A stretch of DNA of 63,765 nucleotides, taken from positions 1 through 63,765 of the forward strand of contig JAJFGE010000092.1 of assembly GCA_021776295.1 (NCBI GenBank). The letters are read 5' to 3'. The first letter of the stretch is position 1. Each line of letters starts with the position of its first letter. Position numbers and translations under genes: made by a program. Source of the DNA: Hyphococcus sp. Its GTDB lineage: Bacteria > Pseudomonadota > Alphaproteobacteria > Caulobacterales > Parvularculaceae. Below the pieces are notes generated by a model, which ran no database searches, was not told where the DNA came from, and saw only the letters and a list, made by a program, of their open reading frames with translations. Positions 24,078-39,251 of this stretch are shown here, in pieces.

Positions 24078-24208
24078 AACTCATCAAGACCAGCTGAGGG
24101 ACAGGCCCTGTGACGCTGGGGCAACCGCTGAAAAGCCAGACCGGCTTTGAGGAAAGGTGCCAATTCCTTCGAGACGCCGATTTATCGGATGGTTTCGAGA
24201 GATGAGTC
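24078..24208 (+). promoter_or_regulatory. S-adenosylmethionine riboswitch, SAM-I (S-box) class
   Basis: The leader has the S-box core. P1 is CTCATC (24080-24085) paired with GATGAG (24201-24206), followed by AAGA. P2a is CCAGC/GCTGG (24090-24094/24115-24119) with the kink-turn GAGGGAC...GTGAC. The conserved GGCAACC lies near 24119-24125 and GGTGCCAATTCC near 24157-24168. P4 is a long hairpin capped by ATTTAT. This motif binds S-adenosylmethionine and lowers expression of methionine genes. It precedes metX-metB, its expected target. SAM-IV shares much of the core and is an alternative. Confidence 0.88.
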
Positions 24209-27708: not shown

Positions 27709-28989
27709 GTGAACACGCTCGATAAAAATATGTCCGTATCCGCCTATATGAATGACATCGGCGCGAAGGCGCGCGCGGCTGCGCGGGTGATGGCGTCGGT
27801 TCCGGGAGAGCACAAAACCGCTGCATTACGCGCCGCCGCACAAACCATCGGCGAGCGCAAGGATGATATTCTGGCGATCAACGCTCACGAAGTTGAAGCG
27901 GCGATCGAGCGGGGACAAAAAGCTTCCTTCGTAGACCGTATGACGCTGACGCGCGCGCGCATCGACGACATTATCAATGCGCTTGGCGAAATTGCTGCAC
28001 AGGATGACCCGGTCGGCAAGGTCATCCGCAAATGGTCGCGGCCGAGCGGGCTAGACTTTGAACGCGTGCGCACGCCGATTGGCGTCATTGCGGTGATCTA
28101 TGAAAGCCGCCCGAATGTAACGGTGGACGCCGCCGCGATTGCGGTCAAAGCCGGAAACGCGGTTATCTTGCGCGGCGGTTCGGAATGTATCAGCACGTCG
28201 AAAGCGCTTTTCGACTGTTTGCAAGAGGGGTTGGCTTCAAACGGTCTGCCAGAATGCGCCGCGCAATTTATTGAGACGCCTGACCGGGCGGCGGTTGGGG
28301 AGCTTCTCTCCGGTCTCGACGGACATGTGGATCTGGTTATTCCCCGCGGCGGGAAATCACTGATCGCTCGTGTCCAATCAGATGCGCGTGCGCCGGTCCT
28401 CAGCCATCTTGACGGAATTTGCCATGTCTATCTTGATCGCGATGCGGATATTCGCAAAGCCGTCGATATCACTCTCAATTCGAAGATGCGTCGCACCGGC
28501 GTTTGTGGCGCTGCGGAGACGCTGTTGATTGATCGGGCGCGCCTCGATGAAATCTGGCCGCCAGTGGCGAGCGCGTTGCGCGAGGCCGGCTGCGAGTTGC
28601 GCGGCGACGAAACGATTCAAAAAATCGATAGCAACGTAATACCCGCGAGCGAAGAAGATTGGCGAACGGAATATCTTGCGCCGATCCTGTCCGTTGCCGT
28701 GGTCGACGGCGTCGCTGGTGCGATGGCGCATATCGAGAAATATTCATCAGCGCACACAGAAGCGATCGTCACGGAAAACCAAAAGACAGCGGAAGCGTTT
28801 CTTTTCGGCGTCGACAGCGCGATCATTTTGCATAACGCCTCGACCCAATATGCCGATGGCGGTGAGTTCGGTCTCGGCGCGGAAATCGGCATCGCCACGG
28901 GCCGCTTACATGCACGCGGACCAGTCGGCGTCGAGGAGTTGACCAGCTACAAAAATATTGTGCGGGGCAGCGGACAGGTCCGGCCCTGA
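27709..28989 (+). CDS. proA: gamma-glutamyl phosphate reductase
   Basis: ProA reduces gamma-glutamyl phosphate to glutamate semialdehyde with NADPH. The 426-residue protein has the family motifs FERVRTPIGVIAVIYESRPNVT and GNAVILRGG, the catalytic cysteine in TGVCGAAETLLID, and ARGPVGVEELTSYK near the end. The start is GTG with GGAG upstream; ATG 27730 is an alternative. It pairs with proB in one operon. Confidence 0.95.
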   Translation: MNTLDKNMSVSAYMNDIGAKARAAARVMASVPGEHKTAALRAAAQTIGERKDDILAINAHEVEAAIERGQKASFVDRMTLTRARIDDIINALGEIAAQDDPVGKVIRKWSRPSGLDFERVRTPIGVIAVIYESRPNVTVDAAAIAVKAGNAVILRGGSECISTSKALFDCLQEGLASNGLPECAAQFIETPDRAAVGELLSGLDGHVDLVIPRGGKSLIARVQSDARAPVLSHLDGICHVYLDRDADIRKAVDITLNSKMRRTGVCGAAETLLIDRARLDEIWPPVASALREAGCELRGDETIQKIDSNVIPASEEDWRTEYLAPILSVAVVDGVAGAMAHIEKYSSAHTEAIVTENQKTAEAFLFGVDSAIILHNASTQYADGGEFGLGAEIGIATGRLHARGPVGVEELTSYKNIVRGSGQVRP

Positions 28990-29008
28990 AGCAGCTGAAA
29001 ACCAACAT

Positions 29009-29023
29009 TAGCATAATTTGCTA
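29009..29023. promoter_or_regulatory. Lrp-like operator
   Basis: TAGCATAATTTGCTA is the core of a perfect inverted repeat (TTAGCA, 5 nt, TGCTAA; 29008-29024). It matches 14 of 15 positions of the E. coli Lrp consensus YAGHAWATTWTDCTR. It ends 5 nt before the candidate -35. A leucine-responsive regulator at an ilv-leu promoter would be logical. Confidence 0.5.
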
Positions 29024-29028
29024 ATAAC

Positions 29029-29057
29029 TTGACACATAAGCGTCTCTGGGTTGAATT
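29029..29057 (+). promoter_or_regulatory. candidate ilvL promoter
   Basis: A perfect TTGACA at 29029-29034 is followed after 17 nt by TGAATT at 29052-29057. The -35 is exact and the -10 weak. It sits just downstream of the Lrp-like site and about 100 nt before the leader gene. Confidence 0.5.
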
Positions 29058-29153
29058 AATTCCAGCAAACATGATTTTTATGTTGTTTATTAACCAGTTC
29101 CTGGTGTAAGCATTTGATGCGTTGCAACACGATGCGCGCAAAAGGAACGGAAA

Positions 29154-29300
29154 ATGCAGTCAATTATGGCGTCAGGATCGGATGACGGGCTCACCAGCTT
29201 TGCTTTGAGCCCTTTCATGCTGTCCGGAATTCTCCTCCTTATTATGGTGGCGCTCCTTATGAGCGCCAATCAGGGAGCGGCCATGGAGCCCGCGCGCTAA
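29154..29300 (+). CDS. ilvL: ilv leader peptide, 48 residues
   Basis: ATG 29154 has AAGGA at 29142-29146. The peptide holds a dense run of branched-chain codons, ILLLIMVALLM, at residues 26-36 (29229-29261). A Rho-independent terminator follows the stop codon before ilvD. Stalling of the ribosome in that run when charged Ile, Leu or Val tRNA is scarce would favour an antiterminator. The hydrophobic run could also be a membrane segment, but the RNA structures favour a leader-peptide role. Confidence 0.8.
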   Translation: MQSIMASGSDDGLTSFALSPFMLSGILLLIMVALLMSANQGAAMEPAR

Positions 29301-29356
29301 CGAACAGCAGCACGGACCTCGACATACCCCGCTCCCGAAAGGAAGCGGGTTTTTTT
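29249..29356 (+). promoter_or_regulatory. ilv attenuator (mutually exclusive RNA stems)
   Basis: Region 1 CGCTCC (29251-29256) lies within the Ile/Leu/Val codon run. Region 2 GGGAGCGG (29273-29280) can pair with region 1. Region 2 can also pair perfectly over 8 bp with region 3 CCGCTCCC (29329-29336), which forms most of the 5' arm of the terminator. Region 4 is the terminator 3' arm (29344-29349). This is the classic 1:2, 2:3, 3:4 plan of amino-acid attenuators. A further 7-bp hairpin (29249-29255/29261-29267) lies in the codon run. Confidence 0.78.
29328..29356 (+). terminator. Rho-independent terminator before ilvD
   Basis: CCCGCT (29328-29333) pairs with AGCGGG (29344-29349) around an inner CC/GG pair and a GAAA loop. 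Seven T residues follow (29350-29356). Its position between ilvL and ilvD makes it the attenuator terminator. Confidence 0.88.
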
Positions 29357-29382
29357 ATGCGACGTAGTTTGGAAATAAACCG

Positions 29383-31053
29383 ATGAGCAAGCAAACTTCA
29401 AAACGATCGGATGCGATCACCAAGGGGCCAGCCAAAGCGCCAGCGCGGGCGATGTTGCGCGCTGTTGGCTTTGGCGACAAGAATTTTGACCAACCTGTGG
29501 TCGCGGTCGTTAACACCTGGTCGACGATTACGCCGTGTAACATACATCTCGGCGCGCTGGCCGAACCGGTGCGTGAGGGCGTGCGCGCCGGCGGGGCGAC
29601 GCCGGTTGATTTCAACACCATCGTGGTTTCCGACGGCATCACCATGGGCGGCGAGGGCATGCGCGCCTCGCTGATCTCGCGCGAGGTGATTGCCGATTCC
29701 ATTGAACTGGCGGTGCGCGGCCATTCGCTTGATGCGGCGGTCATTCTGGTCGGTTGCGACAAGACCATTCCGGCCGCAGCGATGGCGCTGGCGCGCATGG
29801 ATGTTCCGGGCGTCGTGCTTTATGGCGGGACGATCATGGCCGGCCATTGCAAAGGCCGCGATATTTCAATTCAGGATGTATTCGAGGCGGTCGGCGCTCA
29901 TGCCAAGGGCGACATTTCCGACAGCGAGCTTGAGGAAATTGAACGCGCTGCCTGTCCCGGCGCCGGCGCTTGCGGCGGGCAGTTCACGGCCAATACAATG
30001 GCGATGGCGCTGGCTTTTCTGGGGCTTGCGCCCATGGGCGCGGGCGATCCGCCGGCGACGCATCCGGATAAGGCCGGTGAGGCCGAACGTTGCGGGCGCC
30101 TTGCCGCGGAACTCGCCGCCAAGGGCGTCGGCGCGAGGCAGTTCATTACTGAGACGTCTTTGCGCAACGCCGCAACCGCCGTGGTCGCCAGCGGCGGATC
30201 GACCAATGCGGTGCTCCACCTGCCGGCGATAGCCGCTGAAGCCGGCATAACGTTTTCGATTGATGAGTTCGACCGGCTGTCGCGCGAGACGCCGGTCATC
30301 ACCGACTTGAAACCGGGCGGACAGTTTCTCGCAAAAGACCTTTTCGCCGCCGGCGGCATGCGCCTGTTCGGCGCGCGCCTGAAAGACGGCGGCATGCTGG
30401 AAGACGCGCCGACCGTGAGCGGTAAGTCATTATTTGAAGAGCTGAGCTCAGCGCAGGAGACCGCAGGCCAGAGGGTTGTTTCTTCCGTTCAAGAACCGTT
30501 CAAAAAAACTGGCGGCTTGCGTATTCTCTATGGCGATGTCGCGCCGGAGGGCGCGGTTTTAAAAACCGCCGGCTATAGCGACGGCGCCTTTGAAGGCCGT
30601 GCACGGATTTTTGAAAGCGAGGAGGCCGCGTTTGAGGCGGTTTCCAACCGCGATATCAAAGAAGGTGATGTCGTCGTCATTCGCTATGAGGGCCCAAAGG
30701 GCGGCCCGGGCATGCGCGAGATGCTGGCGGTGACGGCGGCGGTCGCTGGCCAAGGTCTTGCCGGCAAGGTTGCACTGATTACCGACGGGCGTTTTTCCGG
30801 CGCGTCGCACGGCTTTGTCATCGGTCATGTCTCGCCGGAAGCCGCCGTTGGCGGGCCGATCGGGCTGCTTGAAGAGGGCGACCTCATCACCATTGACGCC
30901 GAAGCGCGCCGCATCGACGCCGATGTTGATTGGCGTGCGCGCCGCGCCGCCTTCACGCCCAAGGCGCCAAACCGCATGGGCGGCGCTTTCGACAAATACG
31001 CAAAACTGGTTTCCTCGGCGTCCAAAGGCGCCGTCACCATCGAGACGGACTGA
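29383..31053 (+). CDS. ilvD: dihydroxy-acid dehydratase
   Basis: IlvD dehydrates dihydroxy acids to the 2-keto acid precursors of isoleucine and valine. The 556-residue protein has the Fe-S cysteines in [20 protein letters not shown] and [17 protein letters not shown]. The C-terminal [19 protein letters not shown] motif is present. It is the first structural gene after the attenuator. The order ilvD-ilvC-ilvB-ilvN is consistent with one operon. Confidence 0.96.
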
Positions 31054-31091: not shown

Positions 31092-32102
31092 ATGAAACTT
31101 TATACCCAGGATGATGCAAACCCCGCCGCGGTAAAATCCGGACCGGTCGCCGTCATCGGTTATGGCAGCCAGGGCCGGGCCCATGCTTTAAACCTTAAAA
31201 ACTCCGGTTGCGATGTTATTGTCGGCGTCCGCCCGGGCGGGCCGAGTGCGAAACGCGCGGCGGAAGAAGGGCTTGAGGTGGCAAGCATCGCGCGTGCGGC
31301 GGCGAATGCGCGCCTGATTGCCATCCTGACACCGGATATGAGCCATGAGCAGATTTTCAACGACGAAATCGCTCCGGAGCTAAAAGACGGCGATACGCTT
31401 TTATTCGCACACGGATTCACGGTGCTTTATGAACGCGTCAAGCCGCCGCAAGGCGTTGACGTGGTTCTGGTGGCCCCAAAAGGCCCGGGAGATCTTGTGC
31501 GCCGTGAATATCAGCGCGGACGCGGCGTGCCGTGTCTGTTTGCCGTGCATCAGGATGCGAGCGGCAAGGCCAAGGAAAGAGCGCTCGCTTATGCGAGCCT
31601 GATTGGCGGCACGGCGGCGGGGGCGATTGAAACAACCTTCCGGGAAGAAACTGAAACCGACTTGTTTGGCGAGCAGGCGGTGCTGTGCGGCGGCGCGACG
31701 GAGTTGGTGCTGGCCGGATTCGAGACGCTGACCGAGGCTGGCTACAAACCCGAGGTCGCATATTACGAATGTCTGCATGAGCTGAAACTGATCGTTGACC
31801 TTCTTTATGAAGGCGGTCTTGCGAAGATGCATGAGTTCATTTCCGAAACCGCAATTTATGGCGACCTCACCTCTGGCCCACGGATTATCAATGATGAGAC
31901 GCGCGCGCGTATGCGCGAAGTGCTGAGCGATATCCAGTCGGGCAAGTTCGCGCGCGACTGGGTTGCGGAAAACCAATCCGGCAAAGCGCAATATGACAAA
32001 ATGCTGGCGACTGATCTTGCGCACCCAATTGAAAAAACCGGCAAGGAATTGCGTGAGCTGATGTCGTGGCTGCAGCCCGGCGCCGAGAGCAATAAAGCTT
32101 GA
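31092..32102 (+). CDS. ilvC: ketol-acid reductoisomerase, class I
   Basis: IlvC isomerises and reduces acetolactate or acetohydroxybutyrate with NADPH and magnesium. The 336-residue length marks class I. The Rossmann motif [15 protein letters not shown] lies near the N terminus. The metal-binding [17 protein letters not shown] and [13 protein letters not shown] segments follow. AAGGACG precedes the ATG. Confidence 0.96.
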
Positions 32103-32145
32103 AAAAAAGCACGAGCCCTTGGGCCGAGCCGAACGAGGCAATAAG

Positions 32146-33972
32146 ATGACAACGCTGTTGGAACAAACCGAAGACCTGGAGCCGGCGCAAACCGCGCCCA
32201 GCGCCGAACCGGGCGCCGCACAAAAAGCCGGCGCTGAACTGCTGCTCGACGCGCTGGAAGAGCAGGGCGTTGACGTTATTTTTGGCTATCCCGGCGGCGC
32301 GGTCCTGCCGATCTATGATGCGCTTCATCAACGCCGGACCATTCGTCATGTCATGGTGCGTCACGAACAAGGCGCGGTGCATGCGGCCGAAGGCTATGCG
32401 CGCTCCAGCGGCAAGGTCGGGGTTGTTCTGGTGACATCGGGGCCGGGCGCCACCAATGCGGTGACCGGGCTCACCGATGCGTTGCTCGATTCCATTCCGT
32501 TGGTGTGCATCACCGGACAGGTGGCGCGCGGGCTGATCGGCACGGACGCATTTCAGGAATGCGATACGATCGGCATCACCCGCGCCTGCACCAAACATAA
32601 CTATCTCGTTGGCGATGCGCACAATTTGCCGGCGACTGTGCATGAAGCGTTTCATGTGGCGCGCAATGGCCGACCGGGTCCGGTGCTGATTGATATCCCC
32701 AAAGACGTGCAATTTGAAAAAGCTGATTACGTAACCCGCCGCGTCGCGCGCCAACGCAATTGCATCATCACGCCGCCGATGCGTTCAAGTGAAATTGAGC
32801 AGGCGGTTGAGCTGATGCGCCAGGCGCGTCGGCCGGTGTTTTACACCGGCGGCGGTGTTATAAACGCTGGCGTTGAAGCCAGCGCCGCGCTCCGCGCGCT
32901 GGCGCGCGAGACCGGCTTTCCGGTGACCTCGACCTTGATGGGGCTTGGCGCCTTTCCGGCGTCTGATCCGCAATGGCTTGGCATGCTCGGCATGCATGGC
33001 AGCTTTGAAGCCAATAACGCCATGCATGACTGTGATCTAATGATCGCAGTCGGCGCCCGGTTCGACGACCGCGTCACCGGCCGGCTTGATGCGTTCTCTC
33101 CAGGCTCGCGAAAAATCCAGATCGATATTGATCCGTCCTCAGTTAATAAAATCGTTAAGGTCGACTTCCCGATCATCGGCGATGCCGGCGCTATTCTGAA
33201 AGCGTTGCTGGCTGAATGGCGCCGCCGCGCGAGCGATGCGCCGGTTGAACAAACGCGACTGTCTGACTGGGTTGAACAGATTGAAACATGGCGGCGCAAG
33301 AATTCCTTTGCCTATGAGGCCTCGGATCAGGTGATCAAACCGCAATATGCGATTGAACGCCTCTACCAGTTGACCCGCGGCAAGGATGTTTATGTGACCA
33401 CCGAGGTTGGCCAGCATCAGATGTGGGCCGCGCAGCAGTTTCACTTTGACGACCCCAACCGATGGATGACCTCCGGCGGTCTCGGCACCATGGGCTACGG
33501 TCTGCCGGCGGCGATTGGCGTTCAGATCGCCCATCCGGACGCTCTGGTGATAGATATCGCCGGCGATGCATCAGTGCAGATGATGATGCAGGAAATGTCG
33601 ACGGCGATACAACATGATTTGCCGGTCAAAGTTTTTATTCTGAACAATGAATATCTCGGCATGGTGCGGCAATGGCAGGAGCTGCTTCATGATGGTCGTT
33701 ATTCGCATACTTATTCCGAAAGTCTGCCGGATTTCGTCAAGCTCGCCGAGGCTTATGGCGGCGCCGGGCTGCGGGTGGAAAAACCGGACGAGCTTGATGA
33801 CGCGATTAAAGACATGATCGCGATCGACAAGCCGGTGATCTTCGATTGCCGGGTTAGCGCTGAAGAAAATGTGTTCCCGATGATCCCTTCGGGTGCGGCG
33901 CATAATCAAATGTTGTTTGGCGGCGCTTTCACTGGCAATGAAGTCAGCCAGGAAGGGCGCGTGCAGGTTTAA
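32146..33972 (+). CDS. ilvB: acetolactate synthase large subunit
   Basis: The catalytic subunit condenses pyruvate to acetolactate or acetohydroxybutyrate using thiamine diphosphate and FAD. The 608-residue protein has the catalytic Glu in VMVRHEQGAVHAAEGYAR, a central FAD domain, and the ThDP motif running from AGDASVQMM to LNNEYLGMVRQWQ. An N-terminal extension of about 25 residues precedes the first domain. The ATG at 32146 has GAGG upstream; an in-frame TTG at 32119 is less likely. Its 3' end lies 1 nt from ilvN. Confidence 0.95.
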   Translation: MTTLLEQTEDLEPAQTAPSAEPGAAQKAGAELLLDALEEQGVDVIFGYPGGAVLPIYDALHQRRTIRHVMVRHEQGAVHAAEGYARSSGKVGVVLVTSGPGATNAVTGLTDALLDSIPLVCITGQVARGLIGTDAFQECDTIGITRACTKHNYLVGDAHNLPATVHEAFHVARNGRPGPVLIDIPKDVQFEKADYVTRRVARQRNCIITPPMRSSEIEQAVELMRQARRPVFYTGGGVINAGVEASAALRALARETGFPVTSTLMGLGAFPASDPQWLGMLGMHGSFEANNAMHDCDLMIAVGARFDDRVTGRLDAFSPGSRKIQIDIDPSSVNKIVKVDFPIIGDAGAILKALLAEWRRRASDAPVEQTRLSDWVEQIETWRRKNSFAYEASDQVIKPQYAIERLYQLTRGKDVYVTTEVGQHQMWAAQQFHFDDPNRWMTSGGLGTMGYGLPAAIGVQIAHPDALVIDIAGDASVQMMMQEMSTAIQHDLPVKVFILNNEYLGMVRQWQELLHDGRYSHTYSESLPDFVKLAEAYGGAGLRVEKPDELDDAIKDMIAIDKPVIFDCRVSAEENVFPMIPSGAAHNQMLFGGAFTGNEVSQEGRVQV

Positions 33973-33973
33973 C

Positions 33974-34513
33974 ATGGAAAATGCTTCCGTATATCCGGTC
34001 CCGCAAAGCGAAGCTGCTGTGGCTGAGAGCATTCTGGCGGTTATTGTCGACAATGAGCCGGGCGTGTTGTCGCGGGTGATCGGGCTGATCTCGGCGCGCG
34101 GGTATAACATTGAAAGCCTGACCGTTGCTGAGGTTGACGCCGAAAAGCATCGCTCGCGCATCACCGTGGTGACGCGCGGCACGCCGCAAAAAATTGAACA
34201 GATCAAAGCCCAGCTTGGCCGTCTCGTGCCGGTGCGCCGGGTGATCGACGTTAGTAAGGAAAGTGATGCGCTGACGCGTGAGCTGGCGCTGGTCAAGATT
34301 GTCTCAACCGGAGAGCAGCGCGTTGAAGCCATGCGGTTGGCTGAAATTTTTCGCGCCCGGCCGCTCGATACCACGCATACGTCATTTATATTTGAGCTCA
34401 CCGGCGCGCGCGACAAAATCAACGCATTTCTGGACCTTTTAAAACCGCTGGGCCTGACGGAAGTCTCGCGCACTGGCGTGTTGTCGATCCGCCGCGGCTC
34501 GGAGGCTGAATAA
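33974..34513 (+). CDS. ilvN: acetolactate synthase small (regulatory) subunit
   Basis: The 179-residue protein has the N-terminal ACT domain (AVIVDNEPGVLSRVIGLISARGYNIESL region) and the C-terminal small-subunit domain. It stimulates IlvB and mediates valine feedback inhibition. The start at ATG 33974 is 1 nt after the ilvB stop. The frame is open upstream inside ilvB, but that stretch is not IlvN-like. Confidence 0.95.
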   Translation: MENASVYPVPQSEAAVAESILAVIVDNEPGVLSRVIGLISARGYNIESLTVAEVDAEKHRSRITVVTRGTPQKIEQIKAQLGRLVPVRRVIDVSKESDALTRELALVKIVSTGEQRVEAMRLAEIFRARPLDTTHTSFIFELTGARDKINAFLDLLKPLGLTEVSRTGVLSIRRGSEAE

Positions 34514-34553
34514 TCTTATGACCAATTGCCGCTCACAATACCTATCCACTCGA

Positions 34554-34618
34554 CTTAGTCCCGCGCAGAATAAGATTCCGCGCAAGAGAAGCGTTTAACG
34601 GATATAAAAAGGACTAAG
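34554..34618 (+). promoter_or_regulatory. inverted repeat that can mask the leuA ribosome-binding site
   Basis: CTTAGTCC (34554-34561) is the perfect complement of GGACTAAG (34611-34618), which overlaps the leuA Shine-Dalgarno AAGGA. In the RNA an 8-bp stem closing a 49-nt loop would hide the ribosome-binding site. No alternative pairing partner was recognised. It could be chance, or could couple leuA translation to ribosomes leaving ilvN. Confidence 0.35.
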
Positions 34619-34621
34619 ACG

Positions 34622-36163
34622 ATGAGCGATGATCATGTGAGAATTTTCGACACCACTTTGCGCGACGGCGAACAGGCGCCGGGTTTTTCAATGGCGACGG
34701 ACGCCAAACTGATAATCGCGCGGACGCTGTGCGATCTGAATGTCGATATTATCGAGGCGGGATTTGCCGCCGCCTCGCCGGGGGATGCGGCGGCTGTACG
34801 GGCGGTGGCGGAAGAAATTGAGGGCCCGCGCATCTGCTCACTGGCGCGCCTTAATGGGGCTGATATCGACGCTGCGGGCCGCGCGCTTGAACCTGCAAAA
34901 TCAAAGCGAATTCATACCTTTATCGGGACAAGCCCACTCCATCGTGAAGCTAAGCTGAAGCTGACCAGGGGAGAAATTCTCGCGCGGATTTCCGATTTGG
35001 TGGCGCATGCCAAGTCAATCTGCGACGACGTTGAATTCTCGCCCGAAGACGCCATCCGCACCGAGCGCGACTATCTGGTTGAGACGGTTCAGGCGGCGAT
35101 TGAGGCGGGCGCGACAACGATAAATATTCCCGATACGGTTGGGTATACGACGCCGGAAGAAATTGCCGACCTGTTCCGGTTTCTTCGCGCCAACGCGCCG
35201 GGCGACAGCGACGTGACATTCAGCACCCATTGTCACGATGACCTCGGCATGGCGGTTGCCAACAGCCTTGCAGCTGTGCGCGGCGGCGCACGGCAGATTG
35301 AGTGCGCTATCAACGGCATTGGCGAACGGGCGGGAAATTGCTCACTGGAAGAAGCGGTGATGGCGCTTGCCACGCGTAAGGATTTCTTCGGTGTTTCCAC
35401 GCAAATTGAAACGCCTAAGATTTTCGCCGCCAGCGTTGCGCTTGCGCGTGTTACGCACAACCCAATTCCGCGCAACAAAGCCATCGTCGGGAAAAACGCC
35501 TTCGCCCATGAGGCCGGTATTCATCAGCATGGCGTGTTGGCCAACAAGCGCACCTATGAAATCATGGACGCTGAGGCCGTCGGCATGCCGTCCAACTCAA
35601 TCGTGCTCGGCAAACATTCCGGCAAGCATGCGCTGCGGTCGCGCATTGAAGCGCTGGAGTTGAGCGTAACGCCGGAACGCCTTGATGAGCTGTTCGTCAA
35701 GTTTAAACGCCTGGCGGACGCCCAGCGCGAGGTTACTGACGCCGATGTCGTGCGTCTGGTCACCGGTTCGAACAAACGCCCGGGCCGGGCCGGTCCCTGG
35801 CGGTTGCGGCGGGTCGAGATGCGCGTCGAACTGGACGAAGACACGCCCCCCTATGCGCGCATCGGTCTGGAGCATGAAAATGGCGAGCGCCAGACCGTGA
35901 CGTGCGAAGGCGAGGGGCCGTTTGATGCGGCCTTTAATGCGGTTTGCGCGATTGCCGGCGTTGAAGGGCGGATTTTGACGCTCGACATTCACCATGTCGC
36001 CGGCGCCGAAGAGGGGATTGTTCGCGCCGAAACGCTAATTGAAATTGGTGATCAGGAATTTCTCGGCACGGTCAGAGAAATCGATGTCGCTCATGCGGCG
36101 GTGGGTGCGTTTGTGGTGGCGATCAATCAATGCGTTTCCGGCCGCAAAGTCGTGGCGGCCTGA
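34622..36163 (+). CDS. leuA: 2-isopropylmalate synthase
   Basis: LeuA condenses acetyl-CoA with 2-ketoisovalerate, the first leucine-specific step. The 513-residue protein has the DRE-TIM motif FDTTLRDGEQAPGFSM, metal-binding FSTHCHDDLGMAVANS and INGIGERAGN. A C-terminal LeuA dimer domain (about 385-505), the site of leucine feedback, is complete. It is 108 nt after ilvN, with no terminator between, so it is probably co-transcribed. Confidence 0.96.
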   Translation: MSDDHVRIFDTTLRDGEQAPGFSMATDAKLIIARTLCDLNVDIIEAGFAAASPGDAAAVRAVAEEIEGPRICSLARLNGADIDAAGRALEPAKSKRIHTFIGTSPLHREAKLKLTRGEILARISDLVAHAKSICDDVEFSPEDAIRTERDYLVETVQAAIEAGATTINIPDTVGYTTPEEIADLFRFLRANAPGDSDVTFSTHCHDDLGMAVANSLAAVRGGARQIECAINGIGERAGNCSLEEAVMALATRKDFFGVSTQIETPKIFAASVALARVTHNPIPRNKAIVGKNAFAHEAGIHQHGVLANKRTYEIMDAEAVGMPSNSIVLGKHSGKHALRSRIEALELSVTPERLDELFVKFKRLADAQREVTDADVVRLVTGSNKRPGRAGPWRLRRVEMRVELDEDTPPYARIGLEHENGERQTVTCEGEGPFDAAFNAVCAIAGVEGRILTLDIHHVAGAEEGIVRAETLIEIGDQEFLGTVREIDVAHAAVGAFVVAINQCVSGRKVVAA

Positions 36164-36195
36164 GTGGTGAGAAATGATAAGTGGTGAGAACTGAA

Positions 36196-37635
36196 ATGAG
36201 CGAAGAAATGTCGCTGCGATCCTTGTTTGATAAACTCTGGGACGAGCATGTCGTTGTCGCCGAGACCCGGGAAAGTCCGGCGGTGCTTTATATCGACTTA
36301 CATCTCGTCCATGAGGTGACGTCGCCACAGGCGTTTTCGGTATTGGCGGAGCGTGATTTGAACGTGCGCCGTCCCGATCTCACGATTGCAACGCTTGACC
36401 ATTCCACGCCGACATCGCCGCCGAAACCCAATGGCGAGCTTGCCTATGCAACGCCGCAAGCAAAACGTCAGGTGGATCGGCTAATTAAAAATTGCGCCGA
36501 GCATAAAATCCGATTGCTCGGTCTTGGCGATCCGCGGCGCGGCATTGTTCATGTGATTGGCCCCGAACTTGGTCTCACCCAGCCGGGAAAAACCATTGTC
36601 TGCGGCGACAGTCATACATCGACCCATGGCGCTTTCGGCGCGCTCGCCTTCGGTATCGGCACGACGGAAGTCGGGCATGTGCTGGCGAGCCAATGCGTCC
36701 TCCAGCGCAAGCCAAAATCCATGCGGGTTACGTTTAAGGGCGAATTGCCCGCGGGCGTCACCGCAAAGGACATGGCGCTCTATATGATCGCCGAAATCGG
36801 CGCCAGCGGCGGGCAGGGCTATGCCATGGAGTTCGCCGGCCAAGCGGTGCGGGCGCTGTCGATGGAAGGGCGGATGACATTGTGCAACATGTCGATTGAA
36901 GCCGGCGCCAGGTTTGGCATGATCGCGCCGGATGAGACGACCACAGATTACCTGCAAAATCGCGAACAGGCGCCGCAAGGCGCGGCGTGGGACCGCGCGG
37001 TCCGACGTTGGCTATTGTTGCCGAGCGATGACGGCGCCCTGTTTGATAGGGAAATCGAAATCGATTCCTCGAAGATCCGTCCGATGATAACCTATGGCGT
37101 GTCGCCGGATGCGGCCGCCGCAGTTGATGCAGCTGCCCCGCAAGCGCAATCAGACGCTGATCGCCTGGCTCTGGACTATATGGAAATCGCGCCGGGCCGA
37201 CCATTCTCCGTGACCGAAGTCGACCGCGTTTTTATCGGCAGTTGCACCAATTCGCGCCTGTCTGATTTGCGTGAGGCCGCCGAAATTATGCGCGGGCGCA
37301 AGGTCAACGACAAGGTCGTGGCGCTCATTGTGCCGGGGTCTGAGGCGATCAAGCGCGCCGCGGAAGCGGAAGGCCTCGATAAAGTCTTTATCGCAGCGGG
37401 GGCAGAGTGGCGCGAGCCGGGCTGTTCGATGTGTATCGCGATGAATGGCGATCAGGGCGCGCCGGGCGAGTTGGTTGTGTCCACTTCAAACCGAAACTTT
37501 GTCGGCCGGCAGGGCAAAGGCGTGCGCACGGTTCTCGCCAGCCCCGCAACCGCCGCCGCTTCGGCCATAGAAGGCCGCATTGCCGATCCTCGAAACTATC
37601 AACCCAACAAGATGGAGCAGGCTGATGTCGCTTGA
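36196..37635 (+). CDS. leuC: 3-isopropylmalate dehydratase large subunit
   Basis: LeuC with LeuD isomerises isopropylmalate. The 479-residue aconitase-family protein has the Fe-S cysteine motifs [13 protein letters not shown] and [11 protein letters not shown], and the [19 protein letters not shown] signature. The next segment reads [11 protein letters not shown], where many LeuC proteins have TSEVEHVLATQ, so a usual Glu is Gly here. Start choice among GTG 36181, ATG 36196 and ATG 36208 is uncertain. It overlaps leuD by 11 nt. Confidence 0.94.
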
Positions 37636-38215
37636 GCCCATTCAAAAGCTCACCTCGCGCACGATTGTGATGCGGCAGGAAAATATTGACACGGACCAAA
37701 TTATCCCGGCGCGGTTCCTGACCACGACCACGCGCAAAGGGCTTGGCAAGTCGGTGTTTTTTGACTGGCGTTATAATGCAGAAGGCAGGCTGCGCAATGA
37801 CAGCCCGCTCGATGGGTTTAATCCGGCGGAATACAAGATTTTGGTGGCGGGATCGAATTTTGGCTGCGGTTCCTCGCGCGAACATGCGCCCTGGGCGCTC
37901 GCCGATTTTGGTTTTCGCGCGATCATAAGCTCTGACATTGCCGATATTTTCAAAAGTAACGCCCTGAAAAACGGCTTGTTGCCACTTGAGGTTGATGACA
38001 AAACCCACCGTCGGCTTTTGGCCTCGCCCGGGGAGGAAATTTCGGTCGATCTGGTGAGCCAGACGGTGCGTTTCGGCGAGGAGGGATGGCAGACCGTCTT
38101 TCAGGTTGATCCCTTTGCACGGCGCTGCATGCTCGATGGCGTTGACCCGCTGGGGCATTTGCTCAATCAGCTTGCGGTCATTGAGAAATATGAAGAGGAC
38201 CGGCGTGGGCTTTAA
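37625..38215 (+). CDS. leuD: 3-isopropylmalate dehydratase small subunit
   Basis: LeuD supplies the swivelling domain of isopropylmalate isomerase. The 196-residue protein shows [12 protein letters not shown] near the N terminus and the [17 protein letters not shown] motif. ATG 37625 overlaps the end of leuC, with GGAG upstream, and gives the usual length. leuB starts inside its last codons. Confidence 0.95.
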
Positions 38216-39251
38216 CATCACTTACCTGCCGGGCGACGGCGTTGGACCGGAAGTAGCGGGAGCAGCGCGATTGGTTGCGGAAAAGGCCGCGGAAAAGTTC
38301 GCACTTTCACTTGCCTTTCACGAATTTCCGTTTGGCGGCGCGGCGATTGATACGCATGACGATCCGTTTCCGTCCGTCACCAGGCGCGCCTGCGCCGAAG
38401 CGGATGCGGTGCTTCTGGGCGCCGTTGGCGGGCCCAAATGGGATGGCGGGCCCGTGCGGCCTGAAGCCGGGCTTTTGGACCTGCGCAAAATGCTCGGCCT
38501 TTACGCCAATCTTCGTCCGATCCGCATCATGGCGGGGATGGAGGCGTTATCGCCGCTAAAAGCGGCGCGCGCACGCGACGTTGATATTCTATTCGTCCGT
38601 GAGCTGACGGGCGGGATTTATTTTGGCAAGCGGATTGAGGGCGATGAGCATGCAAGTGATGAATGCGCCTATTCGCGTGAGGAAGTCGAGCGCGTAGCGC
38701 GGGTTGCGTTTGAGGCGGCGCATGCGCGCAAGGGCAGGCTGGCCTCGGTCGATAAAGCCAACGTCCTGGCGACCAGCCGGCTCTGGCGCAGTGTTGTGAA
38801 CGCGCTTCATAAAAGCGATTACAGCGATGTTGAGCTTGAGCATGTCTTGGTCGACGCCATGGCGATGAAGCTCATCCAACAGCCGGCGGCGTTTGATGTG
38901 GTCCTGACCGAGAACATGTTCGGCGATATTTTAAGCGATGAAGCCTCGGTCATTATCGGCTCTATCGGGCTTGCGCCCTCGGCCTCGCTGGGCAGGGGCA
39001 AGGCGGGGCTTTATGAGGCGATCCACGGCTCAGCGCCTGACATAGCCGGCCAGGACAAAGCCAATCCTGCGGGCGCGATATTGAGCGCGGCGATGATGTT
39101 TCGTCATAGCTTTGACGCCGAGGCGCCAGCGCAAGCGATTGAGGAGGCCGTCGAGGCGGTTCTCGCGGCGGGCCATGGCACAGCCGACATTGGCGGCGAT
39201 GATGGATGCGCGGCATTTTCTGAGCGGGTTGTCGCGCAACTGGCGAATTGA
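38205..39251 (+). CDS. leuB: 3-isopropylmalate dehydrogenase
   Basis: LeuB oxidatively decarboxylates 3-isopropylmalate with NAD. The 348-residue protein has LPGDGVGPEV at the N terminus and GAVGGPKWDG, VRELTGGIYFG and DKANVL motifs. The catalytic DAMAMKLIQ segment with NMFGDILSDEAS and the NAD-binding HGSAPDIAGQDKANP are also present. GTG 38205 has GAGGA upstream; ATG 38190 is an alternative. Both overlap leuD. It closes the ilv-leu block. ilvA and ilvE are not in the window. Confidence 0.94.
   Translation: MGFNITYLPGDGVGPEVAGAARLVAEKAAEKFALSLAFHEFPFGGAAIDTHDDPFPSVTRRACAEADAVLLGAVGGPKWDGGPVRPEAGLLDLRKMLGLYANLRPIRIMAGMEALSPLKAARARDVDILFVRELTGGIYFGKRIEGDEHASDECAYSREEVERVARVAFEAAHARKGRLASVDKANVLATSRLWRSVVNALHKSDYSDVELEHVLVDAMAMKLIQQPAAFDVVLTENMFGDILSDEASVIIGSIGLAPSASLGRGKAGLYEAIHGSAPDIAGQDKANPAGAILSAAMMFRHSFDAEAPAQAIEEAVEAVLAAGHGTADIGGDDGCAAFSERVVAQLAN

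Follow-up and report, generated by a model that had tools for sequence, protein, structure and literature searches.

The ilvD-ilvC-ilvB-ilvN-leu operon of the marine bacterium Hyphococcus sp. is very probably preceded by a ribosome-mediated transcription attenuator, a reading supported by the sequence of the leader, its conservation, compensatory differences between clades, codon bias and the match between the codon run of the leader and the operon that follows. From the same evidence, we infer termination itself as well as the direction and the trigger of the switch. Three features expected of such an attenuator can be recognized in the window (the whole stretch of DNA that was analysed, 63,765 nt): a short open reading frame (ORF) with a run of Ile, Leu and Val codons, an apparent intrinsic terminator between this ORF and the first structural gene, identified by sequence and conservation, and an antiterminator, based on the conserved 2:3 pairing, that has one arm in common with the terminator and is capped by a further hairpin, W:X (Table 1). 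Attenuation had already been proposed in a first-pass annotation of the sequence. That proposal is upheld here with amendments, as the suggested 1:2 register is weak, the apical W:X hairpin has to be added and attenuation in front of ilvD-first operons was already known.

In the proposed mechanism, scarcity of charged tRNA for Leu, Ile or Val would cause the ribosome to stall within the codon run. Segment 2 would then be free to pair with segment 3, the W:X hairpin would cap this helix, and the resulting composite antiterminator (2:3 plus W:X) would block the terminator and allow RNA polymerase to enter ilvD. Under good supply, the ribosome would continue to the stop codon, which is located in the apical hairpin. 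A ribosome at this position would cover arm W, the antiterminator could not close and the 3:4 hairpin would terminate transcription.

Table 1. Features of the putative attenuator and of the downstream operon in the window.
Feature	Position	Strand	Basis or details
Leader peptide ORF, 48 codons plus TAA (29298-29300), ATG at 29154	29154..29300	+	reading frame; T at codon position 2 conserved
Control-codon run, holds segment 1	29229..29261	+	ATT CTC CTC CTT ATT ATG GTG GCG CTC CTT ATG
Local hairpin GGCGCTC/GAGCGCC in the run region	29249..29267 (29249-29255/29261-29267)	+	-13.6 kcal/mol
Segment 2, GGGAGCGG, 5' arm of the antiterminator	29273..29280	+	complementarity, conservation
Arm W of the apical antiterminator hairpin, coding for the end of the peptide and extending to the first base of the stop codon	29286..29298	+	
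Arm X of the apical antiterminator hairpin	29306..29320	+	
Segment 3, CCGCTCCC, common to antiterminator and terminator	29329..29336	+	complementarity
Putative intrinsic terminator 3:4, CCCGCTCCCGAAAGGAAGCGGG (29328-29349) plus T7 (29350-29356)	29328..29356	+	sequence, folding
ilvD, first structural gene	29383..31053	+	NF002068 and TIGR00110 above curated cut-offs
ilvC, ilvB, ilvN, leuA, leuC	31092..37635	+	NCBIfam
Two ORFs resembling leuD and leuB	37580..39251	+	translations, named by eye

Pairing elements and their conservation

The 48-codon gene encoding ILLLIMVALLM, the terminator with its T7 tail upstream of ilvD and the complementarity of segments 2 and 3, perfect over 8 bp, all lie, base for base, where the first-pass annotation had placed them. 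The terminator stem contains one C.A mismatch, and a simple terminator scanner listed no terminator at 29328-29356. For the RNA 29154-29370, folding gives z = -2.57, and the energies in the window are -28.1 for 2:3 plus W:X vs -14.3 for 3:4. The antiterminator is larger than earlier described, because the 2:3 helix is capped by a second hairpin that carries the leader stop codon. Between segments 2 and 3 of 87 parsed leaders, a few of them mis-parsed (e.g. L020, L033, L058, L066, L068), this W:X hairpin has a mean z of -2.1 vs shuffles, with z < -1 in 72 leaders; 53 of the 87 have a stop codon that starts 17 nt downstream of segment 2.

Loss of the 2:3 complementarity in relatives had been named as an observation that would speak against attenuation; instead, 95.1% of cells pair among 33 leaders of the family. 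In an alignment of 88 leaders that was fitted to the structure model (90 loci were given, with L114 and L123 unmatched), 18 of 20 antiterminator pairs display two-sided change, and the number of two-sided cells reaches 137 vs 45.9 in shuffles, a value as high being found in none of 500 shuffles. In the family alignment, built without fitting to the structure, co-variation does not rise above shuffles (4 cells vs 3.3); the terminator is conserved, but its co-variation is not significant. An alignment-free test (n = 64) compared the W and X arms of the same leader (-15.2 kcal/mol) with species-swapped arms (-11.3 kcal/mol). Swapping between two large clades weakened the pairing to -9.5 and -8.8 kcal/mol, whereas the gain of the own W:X combination within clades is modest (-14.5 vs -13.4 and -15.7 vs -13.6 kcal/mol), and the test supports W:X co-variation between clades. 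The comparison of relatives that had been recommended as a check yields conserved Ile/Leu/Val runs and co-variation between clades, but no excess over shuffles on the unfitted family alignment.

The first-pass annotation had formulated a 1:2/2:3/3:4 logic, of which 2:3 and 3:4 are borne out and the exact 1:2 register is weak. CGCTCC (29251-29256) can pair with GGAGCG (29274-29279), with -8.9 kcal/mol for this pairing alone. All six pairs of the register are possible in 6 of the 33 family leaders and the inner four in 21, while the pair 29252-29278 is present in 8. When three stretches of the window were folded without segment 3, the partner of segment 2 was 29236-29239 in two of them and 29220-29225 in the third. 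Other registers than 29251-29256 are preferred in the window, and the partner that shields segment 2 may differ from species to species. The arm GAGCGCC of the local hairpin in the run region is absent from the other rows of the leader alignment.

A stem flanking the terminator and U-tract, formed by X and the segment before the ilvD start, was also considered. It is not regarded as part of the mechanism, because its own partners rank just 0.52 and 0.62 among all partners and its score in the window (13) does not exceed the shuffled mean (13.9). Among the 63 leaders of the 86 in which it could be parsed, it scored above 95% of shuffles in a fraction of 0.44 of the 25 from Parvularculaceae and in 0.53 of the 38 others. 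The 3' arm of this stem has an alternative pairing partner around the ilvD ribosome-binding site (e.g. in L004, L007, L009, L048 and L074), and extra control of ilvD translation by this arm is possible.

The attenuator layout is far above chance. A combined detector that demands a terminator, a complementary segment 2 and, within an ORF, 8 or more Ile, Leu or Val codons in 12 fires in the window in three overlapping tiles over the leader alone (2116 tiles of 300 nt, both strands). Of 107 unique regions upstream of ilvD, it recognizes 73, and it fires in none of 1070 dinucleotide shuffles made from such regions. The 34 regions that fail this strict detector include visible variants of the layout, e.g. 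L034, L102 and L105 (the last from G014), as well as L096 and L100, in which no leader is visible in the sequence upstream of ilvD.

Folding model of the switch

Folding with and without the ribosome-covered segment, another check recommended by the first-pass annotation, was modelled as equilibrium folding with the ribosome footprint masked. Termination with a ribosome at the stop codon is reproduced well and antitermination upon stalling weakly. With the mask at the stop codon, the terminator has a median probability of 0.95 and the antiterminator 0 in 85 leaders, segment 2 being free and arm W covered; the exception is L011, which is antiterminated even with a ribosome at the stop. A ribosome in the run gives a mean antiterminator value of 0.32 (median 0.23), and the unmasked RNA 0.27 (median 0.02). 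The value with a ribosome in the run is higher than the unmasked value in 58 of the 85 leaders and higher than the stop-codon value in 83. For the window, folding with a short 5' part results in antiterminator values of 0.52 (run), 0.40 (unmasked) and 0.03 (stop). Folding of the whole leader results in 0.00-0.46 for ribosome positions within the run, drops to 0 over 29262-29295 and gives 0.10 for the stop, while ribosomes upstream of the run give 0.92 (29190) and 0.63 (29193). Equilibrium folding is a poor model for a co-transcriptional switch. Taken together with the comparative evidence, the folding results support classical attenuation with a composite antiterminator, in which the terminating ribosome would be what breaks the antiterminator.

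Control codons and the operons they precede

The sequence AGGAA (29143-29147) is found 6 nt 5' of the leader ATG, and the leader ORF is presumably translated. Its run also contains ATG and GCG codons and reaches just 8 Ile, Leu or Val codons per 12. All five Leu codons are CTC or CTT, both Ile codons are ATT and the single Val codon is GTG. The 33 unique family leaders come from three genera, and their best frame holds at least 8 Ile, Leu or Val codons per 12 near the peptide end. Of ten codons in these leaders (alignment columns 7-36), six have an invariant T at codon position 2 and three more have it in at least 29 of the 33 leaders, a signature that is partly selected since the frame was chosen for its maximal content of Ile, Leu and Val. 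Codon choice is skewed as well: across 85 unique ilv runs, CTC plus CTT account for 82% of Leu codons vs 30% in ilvD (first 500 codons, same loci), while ATT represents 86% of Ile codons vs 23%, and GTA 39% of Val codons vs 3%, in the ilvD of the same loci. Biased choice of control codons is reported for attenuators (PMC1183508).

Six leaders located before aspartokinase-homoserine dehydrogenase (AK-HSD) genes (L183, L187 and L216-L219) share the same layout, but their run consists largely of threonine, as in TTMTMTSWT or TTTMITTTTSW. The identity of the AK-HSD genes was assigned by family search for L183 and L187 and by similarity to L187 for L216-L219. The last 25 residues of the six peptides contain 5-7 Thr and 3-6 Ile, Leu or Val, and those of 86 unique ilv leaders a mean of 1.2 Thr and 11.8 Ile, Leu or Val. 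Because the run matches the operon, with Ile/Leu/Val before ilv genes and Thr before AK-HSD genes, this exchange is the strongest argument for the codon run being the sensor. It also weighs against the idea that the RNA is conserved as a riboswitch or as a protein-binding leader and contains the ORF incidentally. Such an element would account for the conservation and stable folding of the RNA from segment 2 to the terminator and for the weak effect of stalling in the folding model, but not for a run that follows the operon, nor for the conserved codon position 2 and the strongly skewed codon choice. Rfam 15, searched at gathering level, likewise contains no family matching the leader or the related loci in six relatives, while two other elements were found in the window. 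A riboswitch or protein-binding leader is thus very improbable.

Distribution in genus, family and order

Within the genus, a DNA match to the leader was obtained in 21 of 28 genomes, the genome of the window included. Among the other seven, G014 and G018 have the leader when the sequence is read (L105 and L107), ilvD is cut at a contig end in G010 and G019, and the IlvD search at 1e-100 was negative in G005, G006 and G020. Some genomes of the family encode distant copies of IlvD, with about 50% identity, and the leaders surveyed here belong to the closer ones. Ten Parvularcula-type loci from a fourth genus (L114-L123) were parsed separately, and the parser did not find a terminator in L123.

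For the wider search, a covariance model (R1) was built from the 33 family leaders and applied to 200 genomes of the order, which we take to be Caulobacterales. It returned 73 matches in 70 genomes, 23 of them training loci. The 50 non-training matches lie before ilvD (42), ilvC-ilvB (6) or AK-HSD genes (2); 47 were read in sequence (39, 6 and 2, respectively), and the remaining three (G028, G075 and G082) are directly upstream of ilvD by position. In the two cases preceding AK-HSD genes, the match is confined to the region downstream of the codon run. Since the R1 model contains the codon run, a second search was based on the bare 2:3/3:4 pairing pattern. It identified 40 sites in 35 of the 200 genomes, and the reversed pattern used as control gave 0 in each of the 200. 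All 40 sites are accounted for, 35 before ilv genes and 5 before AK-HSD (thr) genes; at one of the 35, in G058 (L221), the preceding ORF stops at segment 2 and has a short Leu run alone.

This restriction of the bare pattern to positions upstream of ilv or AK-HSD genes, together with the joint conservation of segment 2, segment 3 and the ORF in relatives, makes it highly unlikely that the terminator is a mere proBA/ilvD boundary, with ilvD served by another promoter and a spurious ORF. The element does sit in the gap that follows proB and proA (NCBIfam; proA ends at 28989), and no promoter-like site is listed on the + strand at 28990-29450. That the leader peptide acts in trans besides attenuation, by analogy with peTrpL of Sinorhizobium, a leader peptide reported as trans-acting (PMC10117765), is less credible still. 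The peptide end GAAMEPAR is kept in many leaders of the genus, but arm W of the RNA hairpin accounts for this conservation, and Parvularcula-type leaders keep the RNA around segment 2 while their stop varies in position between -9 and +10, counted from the segment 2 end.

The attenuator layout is not confined to ilvD. At L166, L170, L175, L177, L178 and L184, the leader is situated upstream of ilvC-ilvB, and the sequence retrieved around it contains no ilvD; leaders of this type belong to another family of the order, apart from L177, which is from the same family as the window. Records named Citromicrobium, Alteriqipengyuania, Luteimonas and Lysobacter also have leaders of the same kind upstream of ilvD (L032, L037, L098 and L099). 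A class-wide IlvD search at 1e-180 retrieved 1 of 153 genomes, that of the window, this cut being too strict to inform on leaders.

Relation to known attenuators

The principle of attenuation is classical and not new, and the version described here is widespread among relatives with conserved details. In the passages available from the sources cited below, the ilvBN attenuator of Caulobacter crescentus is described with tandem Ile and Val codons in its leader and a Rho-independent terminator (Tarleton 1994, cited in PMC4117421). It resembles the leader of the window in its occurrence in a related alphaproteobacterium, its control codons, its terminator and its association with branched-chain amino acid (BCAA) genes, but is located upstream of ilvBN and not of ilvD. 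Another BCAA leader peptide of alphaproteobacteria is the ilvB leader described by Vitreschak 2004 (cited in PMC1273637). In Staphylococcus aureus, a leader peptide of 26 aa with Ile and Leu codons and a terminator precede an ilvD-first ilv-leu operon, as in the window; this bacterium belongs to another phylum, and the antiterminator proposed for it releases a motif for pairing with the poly-U tail (PMC5794164). The ribosome-mediated attenuator Rli60 of Listeria, also from another phylum, lies before ilvD, encodes a 13-aa peptide and was tested by terminator, RBS and start-codon mutants (PMC5864092). The first-pass annotation had stressed control of an ilvD-first gene order in an alphaproteobacterium; the layout is indeed present, but the Staphylococcus and Listeria systems demonstrate that ilvD-first attenuation is not new. 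The Veillonella ilvD motif is likewise a conserved RNA upstream of ilvD, reported as a weak riboswitch candidate from Veillonella alone, with no leader peptide named in the passages seen (PMC8632094).

The Rfam family Trp_leader (RF00513) produced a weak same-strand match at 29239-29358. Membership was rejected, as its 21.3 bits are far below the gathering score of 41, and the run of the window has no Trp codons. Among the literature matches listed, no ilvD leader from Caulobacterales or Parvularculaceae is described in titles or abstract openings, and no description was found of a stop codon in an apical hairpin or of an exchange of runs between operons.

With these leaders, probable BCAA attenuation is located at the ilvD-first operons of numerous bacteria in an order near the model Caulobacter, which also holds genomes named Brevundimonas and Maricaulis. 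A broader proposal is that a single layout, an antiterminator of two stacked hairpins whose apical member carries the stop codon, serves ilvD, ilvC and AK-HSD operons with exchanged control codons, and that the terminating ribosome, not a 1:2 protector, breaks the antiterminator. This generalization is tentative and somewhat more likely to fail than to hold; if true, the two-stacked-hairpin layout would represent a distinct attenuator subclass and a new Rfam-scale family. The many natural variants, threonine versions included, make stop-codon position and codon choice directly testable.

Genomic context

The genes after the leader are arranged on one strand in the order ilvD-ilvC-ilvB-ilvN-leuA-leuC, followed by the leuD-like and leuB-like ORFs. 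In the gap between proA and the leader, an inverted repeat, TTAGCA-N5-TGCTAA (29008-29024), could be an operator; L002 has a similar and L003 a partly similar sequence. The source assembly is a draft of 186 contigs with a completeness of 85.5% and a contamination of 6.1%, and the named records nearest in IlvD are Marinicaulis, Parvularcula and other Parvularculaceae MAGs. A second leader-ilvD copy in the same assembly (G000:C25:64601-64887, L101), with 91% DNA identity and 97% identity of IlvD, probably derives from a second strain within the draft genome.

Elsewhere in the window, a SAM-I riboswitch (RF00162, 76.6 bits) is present at 24078-24208, upstream of metX-type and cystathionine gamma-synthase-type genes. 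SAM-II is the usual class of SAM riboswitch in alphaproteobacteria, and the SAM-I element may therefore merit attention.
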